DNA of 52,071 nucleotides from an uncultured Oscillospiraceae bacterium (GTDB lineage: Bacteria > Bacillota > Clostridia > Oscillospirales > Oscillospiraceae): assembly GCA_947626265.1 (NCBI GenBank), contig CANQRM010000021.1:1-52071 (forward strand). The letters are read 5' to 3'. Position 1 is the stretch's first letter. Every line of letters starts with the position of its first letter. Shown in pieces: positions 288 through 5,074 of this stretch. The notes beneath the pieces were generated by a model. That model saw nothing but the letters and a program-made list of their open reading frames with translations, made no database searches and was not told the DNA's origin. A program made the position numbers and the translations under genes.

Positions 288-1007
288 TTATAATTCATCC
301 CATATATCCAAAGCTTCTTGTTGTGAGAGTCTCTCCTGCACATCGCGCTGTTTCCAAAGAAGATCACAAAGGGTGTCAATACCCTTACCATATTGGCAGA
401 TTTTATCCTCTACGCTTTTGGGTAAAGAAATATAACCTTTATAAATATGTCTCGATGAAGGCCGCTTTTCTCGTGAATAGTCATATTTGCTAATTGTATT
501 ATACACTTGAGCAGACTGGTTGCTGACTCTCATGTACTTATAATCAATTAGTATTCGCTCAGCTTCCCCAATTATAGCTCTAATTCCTTGGTGTATTAGT
601 GCTTCAGCCTGTTTTTTGTCCTCATATCCACGGTATCTATCATTCGGTGCAGTTTTATAGGAAACATGAAGCCAGTAACTATCGTCTTTTAAAGTTTCTT
701 TAACTATTTGTTCGCATCGCTCTAGTGTGTCGCCAAGCCGCTGCTTCATCTCAACTAAAACTGCCCTATCAAGACTTTTAGTGTGCTCTGGATCAGATTT
801 AACTCCGTTTTCAACTACTTTCTTGATAGTTTCTTTTGCAAATGGCACGATTTCGATGGTTATTTGGTGTCGCAACTCATCAAATCGTTCCTGTTGCTTG
901 CAAATTTCTACTTCAACTTCATTTAGTTCTTTTTTAATCTCTTCAACCATCGATGTGAGTTCCTTTCCATCACAAAGTTTTAAAGGTTTTAAAATCAACT
1001 GCTCCAC
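288..1007 (-). CDS. Unrecognised protein, third gene of the higBA operon (239 aa)
   Basis: I do not recognise this family. The GTG start (1007) lies inside the end of higA, whose TGA is at 995-997, so the two genes overlap by 13 bases and are probably translationally coupled; no clear ribosome-binding site precedes it. An in-frame ATG at codon 20 is an alternative start. The protein is soluble, with no signal peptide or membrane segment. Residues about 19-50 are rich in Glu/Lys/Leu with coiled-coil character, and a Tyr/Arg/Lys-rich part follows in the C-terminal half. AT-rich codon use matches higBA, so the three genes travelled together. A role as a third toxin-antitoxin component or as defence cargo is only a guess from context. 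Confidence 0.6.
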   Translation of the reverse strand: MEQLILKPLKLCDGKELTSMVEEIKKELNEVEVEICKQQERFDELRHQITIEIVPFAKETIKKVVENGVKSDPEHTKSLDRAVLVEMKQRLGDTLERCEQIVKETLKDDSYWLHVSYKTAPNDRYRGYEDKKQAEALIHQGIRAIIGEAERILIDYKYMRVSNQSAQVYNTISKYDYSREKRPSSRHIYKGYISLPKSVEDKICQYGKGIDTLCDLLWKQRDVQERLSQQEALDIWDEL

Positions 1008-2116
1008 TCAAGTGTTGTTTTTAAAGAATTGTGCCAAGACCATTCAATTTTGTTATCGTGTTGAAGTCTACCAACGACAATTCCGGGGTGAATTTCCAGA
1101 TAGTTAGCAAAGTTGATAATATCTTCCTTGTAAAAGCGTCCTTGCCGAATAAACCTGGAATATGCAGGAGGTGGAATTAAAAAATCCCGCGACAAGCGGT
1201 CAGCTTCATTTTCGGCATCGGTGTTATCGATTTCATCACAATCAAGGAAAACTACTTTCTTGTGTTCTTTAATGATGTGAGCTGCTTCATGGAAAAATGT
1301 AAACCAAAAATGATCGTTCTTTTTAAAGCGCAGGCTCATTTGAATACAAGGAATACTATTGCAATTAATCCAATATGCTGCCCCACATATCCCTGAACGC
1401 GGAATTTCCTTAACAAACATGAGAATTACTCCTGCTTCTTGACAGAGTTTTCTCATTCTCTCACTAAATCCTTTGCTGGTGTCAATAGTAAGTTTCCTAA
1501 TTTGAATTAGAACTTCTTTAAACTTGCTTCTATTATATTCCGGAACATATTGCATATAGCCTTGGGCAAGGATTTGACCAACCCGTATCCAAGCAGAAGT
1601 GTTTCCAACTTTAGCAGCAGAAGCCCCAGCAATGCGACAGGAAGCGGGAAGATCACTGCAATAAAGGTTATTCCAGCTCTCCATATCGGAACAGCCAAAA
1701 AAAGTAAGCAGGTTATTAATTCGCGCAACCGTTGTTTTTGCGCTATCAAACTCCTTTACATATCCCATTTTTACAAGATTGGTATAATCAAATTGATTCA
1801 GCCATTCATCATATACCTGTGGATCTTTCTTATATTGTTCAGCAATTTGTATATTTCTCAAGAGAAGATCATAGGTTGTTTGCAATGAAAGCCAATATCT
1901 TGCTGGATGATCAACAAACACTTTTTCCAATGCATTTGCTAACTCAAATGTGATGGGCACCTTTCCGTTAATCAAATTGTTCAAATGCTTTGTAGTTATT
2001 CCAAGACGAATTGCCAGTTCAGTTTGACGCATCCCATAAGTCTCAAGTAATTCTTGAACATACTCACCCGGATGGACTGCATAAGTAGGTTGAAATGCAA
2101 ATAACTTATTCTCCAT
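995..2116 (-). CDS. higA: HigA-family antitoxin fused to an ImmA/IrrE-type metallopeptidase
   Basis: Predicted antitoxin and operon repressor of the upstream HigB toxin. Residues about 12-65 form an XRE-type helix-turn-helix of the HigA kind (HPGEYVQELLE, then TELAIRLGIT and LNNLINGK). The C-terminal half is a COG2856 (ImmA/IrrE) domain with the zinc motif HEAAH at residues 276-280. At 373 residues it is far longer than a classical HigA of about 100. I chose ATG 2116, preceded by GGTGAT and overlapping the higB end by 11 bases, over a TTG at 2134 without a ribosome-binding site. ImmA/IrrE proteins cleave partner repressors in mobile elements, so the fused domain might sense or process the antitoxin; that is inference. 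Confidence 0.85.
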   Translation of the reverse strand: MENKLFAFQPTYAVHPGEYVQELLETYGMRQTELAIRLGITTKHLNNLINGKVPITFELANALEKVFVDHPARYWLSLQTTYDLLLRNIQIAEQYKKDPQVYDEWLNQFDYTNLVKMGYVKEFDSAKTTVARINNLLTFFGCSDMESWNNLYCSDLPASCRIAGASAAKVGNTSAWIRVGQILAQGYMQYVPEYNRSKFKEVLIQIRKLTIDTSKGFSERMRKLCQEAGVILMFVKEIPRSGICGAAYWINCNSIPCIQMSLRFKKNDHFWFTFFHEAAHIIKEHKKVVFLDCDEIDNTDAENEADRLSRDFLIPPPAYSRFIRQGRFYKEDIINFANYLEIHPGIVVGRLQHDNKIEWSWHNSLKTTLEWSS

Positions 2117-2447
2117 GATAATCACCAATTTCAATAATCTGAATTCTTGTTACCTCGCTTATGTCAATGCCGCCGTCAGGCAAAGTTGGGAGGGGTTCCA
2201 TATATGGCTTAAAGACAATCCTATAAGGTTGCTTAATATCAACGGCGAATTGGCCGTCACGATTCTGGTTTAGTTGATGAAGCCTTGGTGGTGGCAAATG
2301 TGAGATTTGCGACAAGTTATCAACTGCATAAAGCTCTGATAGCCTCATAGTTATCTTTTTCGCGTTCTGCTGGCCGAATTCTGAGCACAACAGCGTTTCG
2401 CTGCCGCAAATCCGTTGCAACTTCTTGCTCGAAAAGAAAACGTCCAA
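2106..2447 (-). CDS. higB: HigB-family toxin (RelE/ParE superfamily)
   Basis: Predicted ribosome-dependent mRNA interferase, 113 residues. The N-terminus (VFFSSKKLQRICGSE) and the central DIKQPYRIVF strand are typical of HigB/RelE-like toxins that precede long HigA antitoxins. The TTG start at 2447 has a near-perfect ribosome-binding site (gaggtgatt, 2451-2459). The in-frame ATG at 2489 is rejected because it lies in the -10 region of the promoter at 2480-2508 and so would not be transcribed from it. Toxin-first order and overlap with the antitoxin are usual for higBA. Composition is AT-rich like the rest of the operon. Confidence 0.85.
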   Translation of the reverse strand: MDVFFSSKKLQRICGSETLLCSEFGQQNAKKITMRLSELYAVDNLSQISHLPPPRLHQLNQNRDGQFAVDIKQPYRIVFKPYMEPLPTLPDGGIDISEVTRIQIIEIGDYHGE

Positions 2448-2479
2448 AGAATCACCTCGTTTGTCTTTTGCCTTCTGAT

Positions 2480-2508
2480 AGTATAGCATCTAAGAACACA
2501 AATGTCAA
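2480..2508 (-). promoter_or_regulatory. Sigma-A promoter of the higBA operon
   Basis: On the minus strand, TTGACA (2503-2508) is followed by a 17-base spacer and TATACT (2480-2485). The predicted start of transcription near 2473 leaves a leader of about 25 bases before the TTG start of higB. The -35 box overlaps the right arm of the palindrome at 2505-2543. Confidence 0.85.
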
Positions 2509-2543: not shown

Positions 2544-2651
2544 TAATTGATTATCTCTTTGACGATTCTTTTTCTTCTTCGGCCCCCGGGGTTTCGATTC
2601 CGGTCTCTTTCTTACCCCATTCCTGAAGTGCGTCGCCTCATAGGGCTCGAA

Positions 2652-2714
2652 GTAAAACACAAATCCGAACCCATCGCCCACTGGGAAGGGCCCCAGGTGG
2701 TACGGGTTCGGATT
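2652..2714 (-). terminator. Terminator downstream of tRNA-Leu
   Basis: An 11-bp perfect inverted repeat (2662-2672 and 2704-2714) with further internal pairing forms a long hairpin. On the minus strand it is followed by TGTGTTTTA. It lies ten bases beyond the encoded CCA end of the tRNA. Confidence 0.7.
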
Positions 2715-2723
2715 ATGCTGGTT

Positions 2724-2811
2724 TGGTGCGCGAGGCGGGAGTTGAACCCGCACGTCCGGAGTGGACACTAGAACCTGAATCTAGCGAGTCTGCCAATTCC
2801 ACCACTCGCGC
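2724..2811 (-). tRNA. tRNA-Leu (anticodon CAG)
   Basis: Read on the minus strand, the gene has a GCGCGAG/CTCGCGC acceptor stem, a D-loop region with TGGAATTGGCAGAC, an anticodon stem CTAGA/TCTAG with loop TTCAGGT (anticodon CAG), a long class II variable arm, and the T-loop GGTTCAACTCC. The CCA end is encoded (2724-2726). The long variable arm and the UAG/CUA-containing anticodon stem fit leucine. It is transcribed alone from the promoter at 2843-2871. Confidence 0.95.
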
Positions 2812-2842
2812 GTATGTTGGGCGCTCTCCTGAGCGCCCAGTT

Positions 2843-2871
2843 ATAATATCATCATTTTTGGGGATTGTCAA
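2843..2871 (-). promoter_or_regulatory. Sigma-A promoter of tRNA-Leu
   Basis: TTGACA (2866-2871), a 17-base spacer and TATTAT (2843-2848) on the minus strand point to the tRNA. A perfect 8-bp hairpin (2819-2826 with 2831-2838) lies between the promoter and the mature tRNA 5' end, close to the expected transcription start. Confidence 0.8.
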
Positions 2872-2943
2872 TCACAAATTTGCGCCTTTGCGGTGTTTTT
2901 CGGGGCGGCGGGGAACAGAAGGGCATCTCAGCAAACGAAAGTG

Positions 2944-2973
2944 TTGACACAGGGGCCGTTCAGGAACTATAAT
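2944..2973 (+). promoter_or_regulatory. Sigma-A promoter of the double-glycine peptide pair
   Basis: TTGACA (2944-2949), an 18-base spacer and a perfect TATAAT (2968-2973) lie about 46 bases upstream of the first peptide gene. Confidence 0.8.
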
Positions 2974-3018
2974 CTATATAAGAAGAGAGAAACCCTTCAC
3001 CGAGAAAGGAGCCTGACC

Positions 3019-3222
3019 ATGGTCGAACTGAAGGACGAAGTGTTGGAGGGCGCTACCGGCGGAGCCGCCAGCAAAGCCCAAAAGGAAGAGGAAGTGCGGA
3101 AGCAGGCGTTCATAGCGAAGTGCAATACATGCTGGAAAATGGGCGCGACCAAATGTGATGAGAGACTCAAAGCGGAGAAGTCCGGCTGGGCCGCCGCCTG
3201 CACGCAGTACAAACATTTTTGA
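3019..3222 (+). CDS. Double-glycine leader peptide A, Cys-rich (67 aa)
   Basis: The ATG at 3019 is chosen because AAAGGAG lies eight bases upstream; longer readings would start before the promoter. Residues 1-15 (MVELKDEVLEGATGG) have the acidic, Leu-spaced form ending in GG at 14-15 that C39-peptidase ABC exporters cleave in bacteriocin and RiPP precursors. The predicted 52-residue mature part is Lys/Glu-rich with four cysteines (35, 38, 46, 61), able to bind metal or form disulfides. It shares leader architecture and operon with the next gene, with 18 bases between stop and next ATG. No exporter, immunity or modification gene is adjacent. Activity is unknown; a secreted antimicrobial or signal peptide is inferred from the leader only. 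Confidence 0.75.
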   Translation: MVELKDEVLEGATGGAASKAQKEEEVRKQAFIAKCNTCWKMGATKCDERLKAEKSGWAAACTQYKHF

Positions 3223-3240
3223 TCGACAGAGGTGCCGAAC

Positions 3241-3450
3241 ATGAGCGAACTGATAGACGATGAACTGGACGCCGTGACCGGCGGCGCCGCCGACCCGGCC
3301 CCTTCAGCCACCGGTGGCAGCTCCTGTCTATGCCCTGTCTGCAAAAAAGTTACGATCAAATTCAATAACCGGGATACTTATGTGACCTGCCCCAACATGA
3401 CCTGCAAGGCCAGGCTCAAGGTCGTCAACGGCACGCTGCAAAAAGTGTAA
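3241..3450 (+). CDS. Double-glycine leader peptide B with zinc-ribbon-like core (69 aa)
   Basis: The ATG at 3241 follows AGAGG (3228-3232) at a usual distance; an in-frame GTG at 3232 is inside that site and is rejected. The leader MSELIDDELDAVTGG places GG at residues 14-15, exactly as in peptide A. A second GG occurs at 25-26 and could be an alternative cleavage point. The core carries CPVC (31-34) and CPNMTC (50-55), spaced as in a small zinc ribbon, plus Cys29. A leader normally used for export joined to a zinc-ribbon-like core is unusual. It is co-transcribed with peptide A, and a long inverted repeat at 3516-3577 ends the unit. Confidence 0.75.
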   Translation: MSELIDDELDAVTGGAADPAPSATGGSSCLCPVCKKVTIKFNNRDTYVTCPNMTCKARLKVVNGTLQKV

Positions 3451-3515
3451 GAAAAATAGAAAGCCAACAATAACCCCGTTCAGAGCGAATCATTCAGCCT
3501 CTGCGGAACCGTGTC

Positions 3516-3585
3516 GAAATAGCTCTGAAGATGAACAGGCCCGGAAACGGAGCTCCTTCATCGCTCAGAGCTATTTCTGCTTTTC
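3516..3585 (+). terminator. Long inverted repeat ending the peptide operon
   Basis: A perfect 13-bp inverted repeat (3516-3528 and 3565-3577), with an additional gatgaa/ttcatc pairing inside, is followed by TGCTTTTC. It lies 65 bases after peptide B. The large interior (36 bases) is unusual for a simple terminator. Confidence 0.55.
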
Positions 3586-3617
3586 ATGCCCCGCTGCAGG
3601 CCCTTTTGAGCGCTTCC

Positions 3618-3647
3618 CGCCCCATCGCGTTTTTGCGCGGTGGGGCG
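3618..3647. terminator. Hairpin before the GPH symporter gene
   Basis: A 12-bp stem (3618-3629 and 3635-3647, one G-T pair) closes a loop of five Ts. No T tract follows on either strand, so it may be a leader structure of the following gene rather than a terminator. Confidence 0.4.
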
Positions 3648-3682
3648 TTCGATGAGCGAAAAGAAAGAGGAGGAAACAGGAA

Positions 3683-5074
3683 ATGAAACTGACCCGGTCC
3701 CAGACCGCCGCATTCGGCATCGGCGCCGTGGGAAAGGACATGGTGTACGCCCTGTCCGCAAGCTACGTGATGTACTTCTACCAGGATATCCTGGGCCTGT
3801 CGGCCACCTTCGTGGGGCTCATTCTGATGATCGCCCGGGTGTTCGACGCGCTGAATGACCCCTTCATGGGCATCCTGGTGGCCAAGACCCGCACCAAATG
3901 GGGCCGGTTCCGGCCCTGGCTCATCAGCGGCACGGTGCTGAACGCCTTCGTGCTGTACGCCCTGTTCGCCGCGCCGGACCTTCACGGCACGGGCCTGATG
4001 GTCTACTTCGGCGTCATATACATCCTCTGGGGCGTTACATACACCATGATGGACATCCCCTACTGGTCCATGATACCCGCCGTCACCGACACCCCCAAGG
4101 ATAGAGAGAACCTGTCCGTGGTGGGCCGCACCTGCGCAGGCATCGGCTCGGCGGTGGTCCAGGTGGGCACGCTGCTGGCAGTGGCCGCCCTGGGCGGCGG
4201 CAATGAGCGCACCGGCTTCGGCCGCATCGCCCTCATCATCGCGGTGATATTCGTCGCGGCGGAGGCATTCTGCTGCGCCAAGGTGCGGGAGCACGACATC
4301 GGGAAGATGGAGACCTCCTCCGTCAAAGACATGTTCAAGGCCCTCTTCCGCAACGACCAGGCCATGATAACGGTCCTGGCCATCCTCATGATCAACGGGG
4401 CGCTGTACCTCACCAGCAACCTGGTCATCTATTTCTTCAAGTACGACTTCGGCGGCGCCGGCTGGATGGGCAGCTACACCCTCTTCACCACCGTGGGCGG
4501 CGCGTGCCAGATCCTGGGCATGATGGTGGTGTACCCGCTGCTGCACAAAAAGCTGGGCAACACCAGCCTCTTTAAGGTGGCCCTCACCATGGCCATGGCG
4601 GGCTATGCCCTCATCCTCGCCATATGCTTTATGGGCCTGGGCTCCAACATCATCCTGCTGTGCGTCTGTGGGGCGCTGGTGTTCGCCGCCAACGGCATCC
4701 TCACCGTGCTGACCACGGTGTTCCTCTCCAGCTCCGTGGACTACGGCCAGCTGAAGACCGGCCGCCGGGAGGAGAGCGTCATCTTCTCCATGCAGACCTT
4801 CGTGGTGAAGGCGGCCTCCGGCGTGGCGGTGTTCATCACCGGCATCGGCCTGGATCTGATAGGCCTGGTGGGGGATACCTCCGAGACCGGCGCGGCGGTG
4901 GCCCAAAGCGCGTCCACCATCCTGGGCCTGCGGCTTCTGATGACCATCCTGCCCATCCTGGGGCTCACGGTGGCGTTCATCTTCTTCGTGAAGAAGTTCA
5001 CCCTTACCGACGAGCGGGTGCAGGAGATCGCGGATACCCTGCGCGCCGGGAAGACGGGGGAGGCGGCGAAATGA
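3683..5074 (+). CDS. GPH-family sugar:cation symporter
   Basis: Twelve-segment inner-membrane secondary transporter of the glycoside-pentoside-hexuronide family (MelB/UidB/XynP-like), 463 residues as expected. The family motifs are visible: an Asp-rich helix end at about residues 55-62 (FDALNDPFMG) and the loop RTKWGRFRPW near 70-79. Substrates of the family are glycosides, pentosides and glucuronides carried with Na+ or H+. Its position beside a hydrolase and the uxuAB genes suggests a glucuronide or oligouronide substrate, which is inference. AAGAGGAGG precedes the ATG. Its stop overlaps the next ATG (ATGA), so the two are translated as a pair. Confidence 0.85.
   Translation: MKLTRSQTAAFGIGAVGKDMVYALSASYVMYFYQDILGLSATFVGLILMIARVFDALNDPFMGILVAKTRTKWGRFRPWLISGTVLNAFVLYALFAAPDLHGTGLMVYFGVIYILWGVTYTMMDIPYWSMIPAVTDTPKDRENLSVVGRTCAGIGSAVVQVGTLLAVAALGGGNERTGFGRIALIIAVIFVAAEAFCCAKVREHDIGKMETSSVKDMFKALFRNDQAMITVLAILMINGALYLTSNLVIYFFKYDFGGAGWMGSYTLFTTVGGACQILGMMVVYPLLHKKLGNTSLFKVALTMAMAGYALILAICFMGLGSNIILLCVCGALVFAANGILTVLTTVFLSSSVDYGQLKTGRREESVIFSMQTFVVKAASGVAVFITGIGLDLIGLVGDTSETGAAVAQSASTILGLRLLMTILPILGLTVAFIFFVKKFTLTDERVQEIADTLRAGKTGEAAK

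Follow-up and report, generated by a model that had tools for sequence, protein, structure and literature searches.

Two small genes lie in tandem in the stretch of DNA analysed here (the window, 52,071 nucleotides from an uncultured Oscillospiraceae bacterium). Both open with a double-glycine (GG) leader of one form, and the cores behind the leaders are unrelated. The question raised by this locus is to what kind of system such a pair, here P1 and P2, belongs and by which route its products could leave the cell. A preliminary description had proposed a GG-leader secreted-peptide system with the architecture of a two-component bacteriocin or RiPP.

The P1/P2 locus

The tandem arrangement is as first described: both open reading frames carry a 15-residue leader that follows the form M-x-E-L-x8-T-G-G exactly, with GG at the same residues (Table 1), and their cores are mutually unrelated, with four cysteines each. 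The P1 core counts 52 residues, is charged and has the spacing C-x2-C-x7-C-x14-C, and the P2 core counts 54 residues and is zinc-ribbon-like, with the motifs CPVC ... CPNMTC. The strong promoter claimed ahead of the pair was likewise found, with full agreement to consensus, and a scan of positions 2600-3800 gave three promoter-like sites, where shuffled sequence averaged 0.5. Both promoter hexamers and both genes are retained in the sister genome G168. The inverted repeat on the 3' side is a possible transcript end; the terminator scan did not call it, and the second arm of its G168 counterpart is imperfect.

Table 1. Coordinates of the features discussed in the text, in the window, on other stretches (L numbers) and on contig C11 of the source genome.
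Feature	Location	Strand	Remarks
Presumed HigB/HigA-type toxin-antitoxin pair with ImmA-like domain	window 995-2134, 2106-2489	-	by resemblance
tRNA-Leu, upstream of the pair	window 2724-2811	-	
sigma-70-type promoter TTGACA-18-TATAAT	window 2944-2973	+	12/12 consensus matches
P1, GG-leader peptide gene	window 3019-3222	+	67 aa; ORF list
P1 leader MVELKDEVLEGATGG	window 3019-3063	+	GG = residues 14-15
P2, GG-leader peptide gene	window 3241-3450	+	69 aa; ORF list
P2 leader MSELIDDELDAVTGG	window 3241-3285	+	GG = residues 14-15
Inverted repeat 3' of the pair	window 3516-3577	+	GAAATAGCTCTGA 3516-3528, TCAGAGCTATTTC 3565-3577
Transporter gene, next clear gene downstream of the pair	window 3683-5074		ORF list; presumably MFS sugar-porter type
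STAS protein with weakly methyltransferase-like part	L048 4360-5598		
STAS protein with weakly methyltransferase-like part	C11:37135-38487		
~ 550-aa protein near exporter (G159)	L124 13322-14983		
~ 550-aa protein near exporter (G180)	L136 1206-2864		
Radical SAM protein (G181)	L142 13922-14983		
GG-tagged CW_7/LysM genes (G004)	L161 12744-13073, 15788-15988		
GG-tagged CW_7/LysM genes (G109)	L162 12641-12904, 13265-13594		
GG-tagged CW_7 gene (G084)	L163 13058-13390		
Giant proteins, presumed Sel1-type (G000)	L009 1943-7231; L040 8986-15993; L042 5706-11306		
Giant proteins, presumed Sel1-type (other genomes)	L125, L129, L130, L133, L134, L135, L139		

Two of the leader profiles used (A5 and A6) include the P1 and P2 leaders, so that matches in the window with them are partly by construction. 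In the window test the profile was rebuilt minus both window leaders and run against 892 six-frame segments of at least 30 residues, among which the P2 segment ranked first (17.2 bits) and the P1 segment second (5.0 bits). Scored as peptides with this window-free profile, P2 reached 17.3 bits, a value attained by none of 2000 leader shuffles, and P1 6.3 bits, attained by 12/2000. The weakness of the P1 leader counts against the reading that we favour below.

P2 has homologues in 13/35 genus genomes, the source genome (G000) included. Conservation of the GG position, which had been named as a check, is complete in the alignment of these proteins (A7), where GG and the four cysteines are invariant in 10/10 sequences, the window's own among them. 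The homologues of G159, G180 and G162 and the second one of G165 are absent from A7; those of G159 and G180 both have the GG and the four cysteines. Moreover, P2 is under purifying selection, with a dN/dS of 0.06 against its G168 orthologue (5 synonymous and 1 nonsynonymous changes, one inserted G168 codon excluded). The family is narrow: 6/400 family genomes match at E<=1e-4, four of those within the genus, and the six named loci all come from uncultured Oscillospiraceae MAGs labelled 'Lapin', presumably of rabbit gut origin. The AlphaFold2 model of P2 displays an all-beta core with five strands after residue 25, at a mean pLDDT of 67.5 and block means of 77-81 from residue 31 on. Against Pfam PF03119 P2 scores 18 bits, under the cut-off of 25.8. 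A PDB search with the P2 family retrieved a multi-zinc-finger design, at E 9e-9 for the chain taken as a whole but with none of its stretches passing individually, besides weaker matches to zinc fingers and RNA-polymerase zinc ribbons. Judged from the motif spacing and the medium-confidence model, the cores probably bind metal.

P1 is an orphan in comparison. An orthologue exists in one other genome, G168 (93% identical; 2/35 genus genomes with its own), at a dN/dS of 0.24 (5 synonymous and 5 nonsynonymous changes). Its AlphaFold2 model is helical and of low confidence (mean pLDDT 60.5), and Pfam and NCBIfam searches returned chance-level matches only. The genus contains a four-Cys family (A12; NC-x2-C ... 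C ... C) whose 28 members were picked by eye and score 15.9-56.8 bits in a leave-one-out test, so that the set coheres. Against A12 the P1 core scored 2.0 bits, and since this value is reached by 154/995 scored shuffles and by 590/997 with the cysteines fixed, P1 shares only the spacing with this family; membership as a proven fact was dropped. Run against the sequences of the PDB, the profile of this four-Cys set produced two weak matches, of which one (E 0.81) is to a Nif11-domain protein, at the leader end.

The exporter and the leader repertoire

In the source genome (3.2 Mb, 77 contigs) a single C39 domain passes the Pfam cut-off; it is located on contig C11 and scores 116 bits. The C39-peptidase ABC gene that carries it is an NHLM_micro_ABC1 (TIGR03796; 950.4 bits, cut-off 853.3) and the next gene an NHLM_micro_ABC2 (TIGR03797; 751.4 bits, cut-off 709.4). 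The peptidase-containing exporter that the preliminary description had suggested looking for is present in the genome, and its remark that no exporter is at hand holds for the window but not for the genome. Ahead of ABC1 lies a gene for a 163-aa protein which scores 43.8 bits with the HlyD-like model TIGR03794, below the cut-off of 156.2, and aligns to model positions 1-59 only. Four GG-leader genes with zinc-knuckle-like cores are found directly downstream of this exporter. As to a second exporter in this genome, a weak C39 match on contig C17 (20.2 bits, family cut-off 22) was rejected, and at E<=1e-105 a TIGR03796 search lists no genes but those of C11. Counting against the favoured reading, the window pair and the exporter are on separate contigs, and it is only P2 homologues that adjoin one.

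Further upstream of the C11 exporter there are STAS-domain genes, one of which is fused to a phosphotransferase-like part (TIGR02172, below cut-off); in another, the attached part resembles, as we take it, SAM methyltransferases. A C-terminal STAS domain joined to a weakly methyltransferase-like part is seen in the protein upstream of the C11 exporter genes and in that of L048, which has an LCM match below cut-off and immediately precedes a GG gene (L034); both are points against the favoured reading, in which the cores are unmodified.

The leader itself occurs many times. In the source genome a nine-leader profile matched 39 places at E<=10, of which 18 pass E<=1e-3, and a 21-leader profile 25 at E<=1e-3 and 28 at E<=0.01. 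Across the 35 genus genomes the counts at E<=0.01 are 44 in G171, 40 in G159, 34 each in G168 and G180, 28 in G000, 11 in G172, 6 in G166, 4 in G174, one in four genomes and none in 23. The search for further genes with this leader, also proposed at the outset, thus returned 25-28 in the source genome; for four sister species the range is 34-44. Profile A6 under-counts other genomes because it was built from G000 leaders, and it missed GG genes of G173 and G175. A sample of 150 family genomes gave a leader match at E<=1e-3 in six, G000 included.

Leaders and exporter co-occur. TIGR03796 is above cut-off in 13/35 genus genomes and C39 is detected at E<=1e-10 in 14/35. Among the eight genomes with at least four leaders, seven have TIGR03796 above cut-off (one-sided Fisher p 0.0017, ignoring relatedness), and in the eighth, G171 (78% complete), the C-terminus of ABC2 is found at the edges of two GG-rich contigs. 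C39 is present in 10/13 genomes with a P2 homologue vs 4/22 without one (Fisher p 0.001, ignoring relatedness). Furthermore, in three genomes (G173, G175, G182) and at the named MAG locus L147, a P2 homologue lies immediately 5' of a HlyD-like gene, which is followed by ABC1, all on one strand; L147 and G182, whose P2-homologue sequences are identical, are possibly one genome. G175 has a four-Cys GG gene directly 5' of the P2 homologue, and G173 a similar one near it on the same strand, with one gene between. Two observations count against this association: G165 (93% complete) and G162 (77%) have a P2 homologue and were negative in the C39 search, and 0-1 profile leaders are found in 7/14 C39-bearing genomes (G155, G157, G163, G173, G175, G181, G182).

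The two G171 contigs (L132, L134) both start with the C-terminal end of ABC2, followed by GG genes; the ABC2 fragments are 86-87% identical over 86-88 aa, and they may reflect two exporter copies or an assembly fork. Near the exporter in G159 and G180 there is also a related protein of ~ 550 aa, which we take to be possibly a GH3-type ligase.

With a C39 exporter in the genome and an invariant GG, the proposal of a GG-leader secreted-peptide system is supported, export being the predicted step.

Composition and evolution of the cores

Stretches of 13 genomes, chosen for GG genes, exporters or P2 homologues, yielded 143 distinct GG peptides from nine of the 13. Cores of at most 90 aa are present in 140 (three were dropped), 99 of them non-redundant, and 98 make up alignment A11, one peptide whose 15-residue leader runs into a stop being omitted. 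GG is present in 98/98 of these peptides, which were selected by that leader. CxxC occurs in 82/99 non-redundant cores, and their C-x2-C pairs number 116, against 23.7 in 2000 shuffles (sd 4.4, maximum 41), all other Cys spacings from x0 to x11 being below expectation. Proline follows 78/361 cysteines in the same cores. A plain count over the fetched G000 stretches gave CxxC in 18/27 GG small ORFs vs 9/140 others. By a broad pattern, 80/140 cores are zinc-ribbon-like, with the automatic classes varying between two classifications because their rules differ; a GG leader on a core of this kind, initially called unusual, is not rare in the genus.

Searched against Pfam, the 98 peptides matched 48 families at E<=0.01, and among the 25 of these listed, the best-populated are zinc ribbons, zinc fingers and LIM, none with more than four members. 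With NCBIfam 20 families were matched at E<=0.01, mostly zinc proteins apart from the RiPP family XyeA (4/98 peptides, best 0.0021) and the CTB bacteriocin model (2/98, best 5.7e-5), both of which may owe their matches to the leader. PADLOC gave three one-member matches.

The alternative with most in its favour is that these are class IIb two-peptide or multi-peptide unmodified bacteriocins, secreted antimicrobials whose diversity reflects an arms race. Class IIb bacteriocins are encoded by two adjacent GG-leader genes, an arrangement which P1 and P2 share. The strong promoter, the variable cores and the CTB matches would fit as well, as would a core dN/dS of 1.21 vs 0.21 for the leader in four G159-G171 gene pairs. 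Diversifying selection on the cores was retained as a hint only, since that value comes from four gene pairs with low dS; in larger sets the cores are constrained (0.28 in seven G000-G168 pairs, 0.50 in 17 G159-G180 pairs; the G171-G159 and G171-G180 comparisons are non-independent), and P2 in particular evolves slowly. Moreover, P2 homologues are present in 13/35 genomes vs 2/35 for P1, which is missing from 11/13 genomes with a P2 homologue, and neighbouring GG genes mix core types (four-Cys then zinc-ribbon 15, the reverse 11, two zinc-ribbon 33, two four-Cys 11; no shuffle control), no fixed pairing of the P1/P2 type being seen among them. No immunity gene was seen beside P1/P2, by eye and on the ORF list, a possible second difference from class IIb besides the lack of obligate pairing, and charged, knuckle-like cores do not have a membrane-active look. 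The absence of P1 from most of these genomes and the mixing of core types in clusters make a two-peptide bacteriocin, as first suggested, unlikely, and we regard the wider bacteriocin reading as improbable.

In the GG clusters of G159, G180 and G171, but not in G000-G168, leader dS is several-fold core dS in near-orthologous pairs, which may reflect reshuffling of leaders and cores or gene conversion.

Cargo, modification and a proposed role

A second alternative is that P1 and P2 are RiPP precursors: an enzyme such as a radical SAM protein would tailor the cores, which would then pass through the NHLM exporter. In Haft 2010 (PMC2887384) the NHLM exporter families are tied to RiPP precursors. 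In G181, upstream of an NHLM exporter, a radical SAM gene adjoins two GG genes and could mark a tailored branch, and the XyeA matches point the same way. On the opposite side, a LanC-type cyclase was found in 0/35 genus genomes, G000 included, at E<=1e-5, whereas the control search found it in 1/14 named genomes, and the CxxC spacing suits metal knuckles. The cargo of related exporters also bears on this point. In a family sample, TIGR03796 is above cut-off in 13/150 genomes. Beside NHLM exporters of sister genera, GG leaders are followed by CW_7 repeats (102-106 bits; G004, G109, G084) or by LysM (56-60 bits; G004, G109), and in G148 and G005 long-leader Cys-rich or Gly-rich peptides lie beside the same exporter type. 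CW_7 and LysM are ordinary cell-wall modules, and their presence is an argument that exporters of this kind are able to transport small domains in unmodified form. Taken together, with LanC as the tailoring enzyme searched for across genomes and the exporter neighbourhoods read by eye from translations that were in part cut short, tailoring of the cores appears quite improbable.

Zinc ribbons are usually intracellular and the weak Pfam matches fall mostly in zinc-ribbon and zinc-finger families of other proteins, but a fortuitous GG in intracellular proteins is very improbable, given that one leader, with GG in every peptide selected by it, precedes unrelated cores and both co-occurs with and adjoins a C39 exporter.

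We consider it likely that P1 and P2 belong to a repertoire of mini-proteins that are secreted unmodified through a RiPP-type exporter and that probably bind metal. They would be two dispersed members of a genus-wide set of GG-tagged mini-proteins, whose short acidic leader ([E]L-x-D-E-x-L-D-x-V-x-G-G) would be recognised by the NHLM-type C39-peptidase ABC exporter working with the second ABC subunit and the short HlyD-like partner. The leader would be cut after GG and the core exported with no further modification. Outside, in the oxygen-free gut, CxxC cores might fold on a metal, with zinc as the most probable ion, or become disulfide-bonded; their site of action could be the cell surface or adjacent cells.

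Candidate surface partners are giant repeat proteins, presumably of the Sel1 type, which lie beside many GG clusters. Those next to GG genes in three G000 stretches have lengths of 1762, 1866 and no less than 2335 aa; the first two have a lipoprotein-type signal and the third is cut by the stretch end. Such a protein is present in 10/57 stretches: three come from G000, and the remaining seven are GG stretches of G159, G168, G171, G180 and G172. It was not seen in the other 47, which include the window, the C11 exporter region, many further GG stretches and 16 stretches around exporters of other genera. A bolder conjecture, which we hold to be rather unlikely, is that in some gut Oscillospiraceae 25-45 different metal-knuckle mini-proteins per genome, hypervariable and sent by one GG tag to the NHLM exporter, are displayed on or read by Sel1-type proteins from many of these clusters as a modular system of extracellular 'zinc-finger' recognition or signalling, reduced and metal-loaded only in an oxygen-free habitat.

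MAM of Faecalibacterium prausnitzii is to our knowledge not a cysteine-knuckle repertoire. Among the openly licensed papers listed, judged by title and opening lines of the abstract, none dealt with zinc-ribbon GG peptides of the present bacteria. A close known system is NHLP/Nif11 (Haft et al. 2010, PMC2887384), which has the same exporter families (TIGR03794/03796/03797), large paralogous sets, a shared GG-ending leader and hypervariable cores; its authors attribute the conservation of the leader to the transporter more than to tailoring enzymes. Its leaders are long there, whereas those described here have ~ 15-24 residues; LanC was found in none of the 35 genus genomes, the cores are mostly CxxC knuckles and the HlyD-like partner is short. 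P1 and P2 gave no match to the Nif11-type leader model TIGR03798 at E<=10, and three long-leader paralogues scored 25.8-27.5 bits, below its cut-off of 32.3. EbfG1-4 of Synechococcus elongatus, which like MAM are a precedent for the proposed export, form a comparable group of small GG-motif proteins; they lack known domains, their secretion is aided by the C39 transporter PteB, and they are needed for biofilm, not for killing. They differ in being four proteins rather than dozens and in coming from a cyanobacterium, and the accessible text mentions no zinc-knuckle cores (PMC4997328). In MAM the GG is at residues 20-21, MAM-derived peptides occur in supernatant, some strains have a C39 transporter close to the gene, and the region also contains a HlyD-type gene; it differs in having, in the text consulted, one or two genes per genome (PMC8836110).

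The new part would be dozens of knuckle mini-proteins per genome as exporter cargo, a type not usually linked to the NHLM transporter. NHLM exporters have been portrayed as machinery for exporting peptide natural products, many of them modified; here such machinery seems to have dozens of small domains of ordinary kinds as its cargo, zinc knuckles in this genus and LysM or CW_7 in sister genera. If this is true, NHLM would offer the mini-proteins of gut bacteria a secretion route of general use, more proteins of gut microbes would have to be counted as secreted, and a simple leader motif would serve for finding them.
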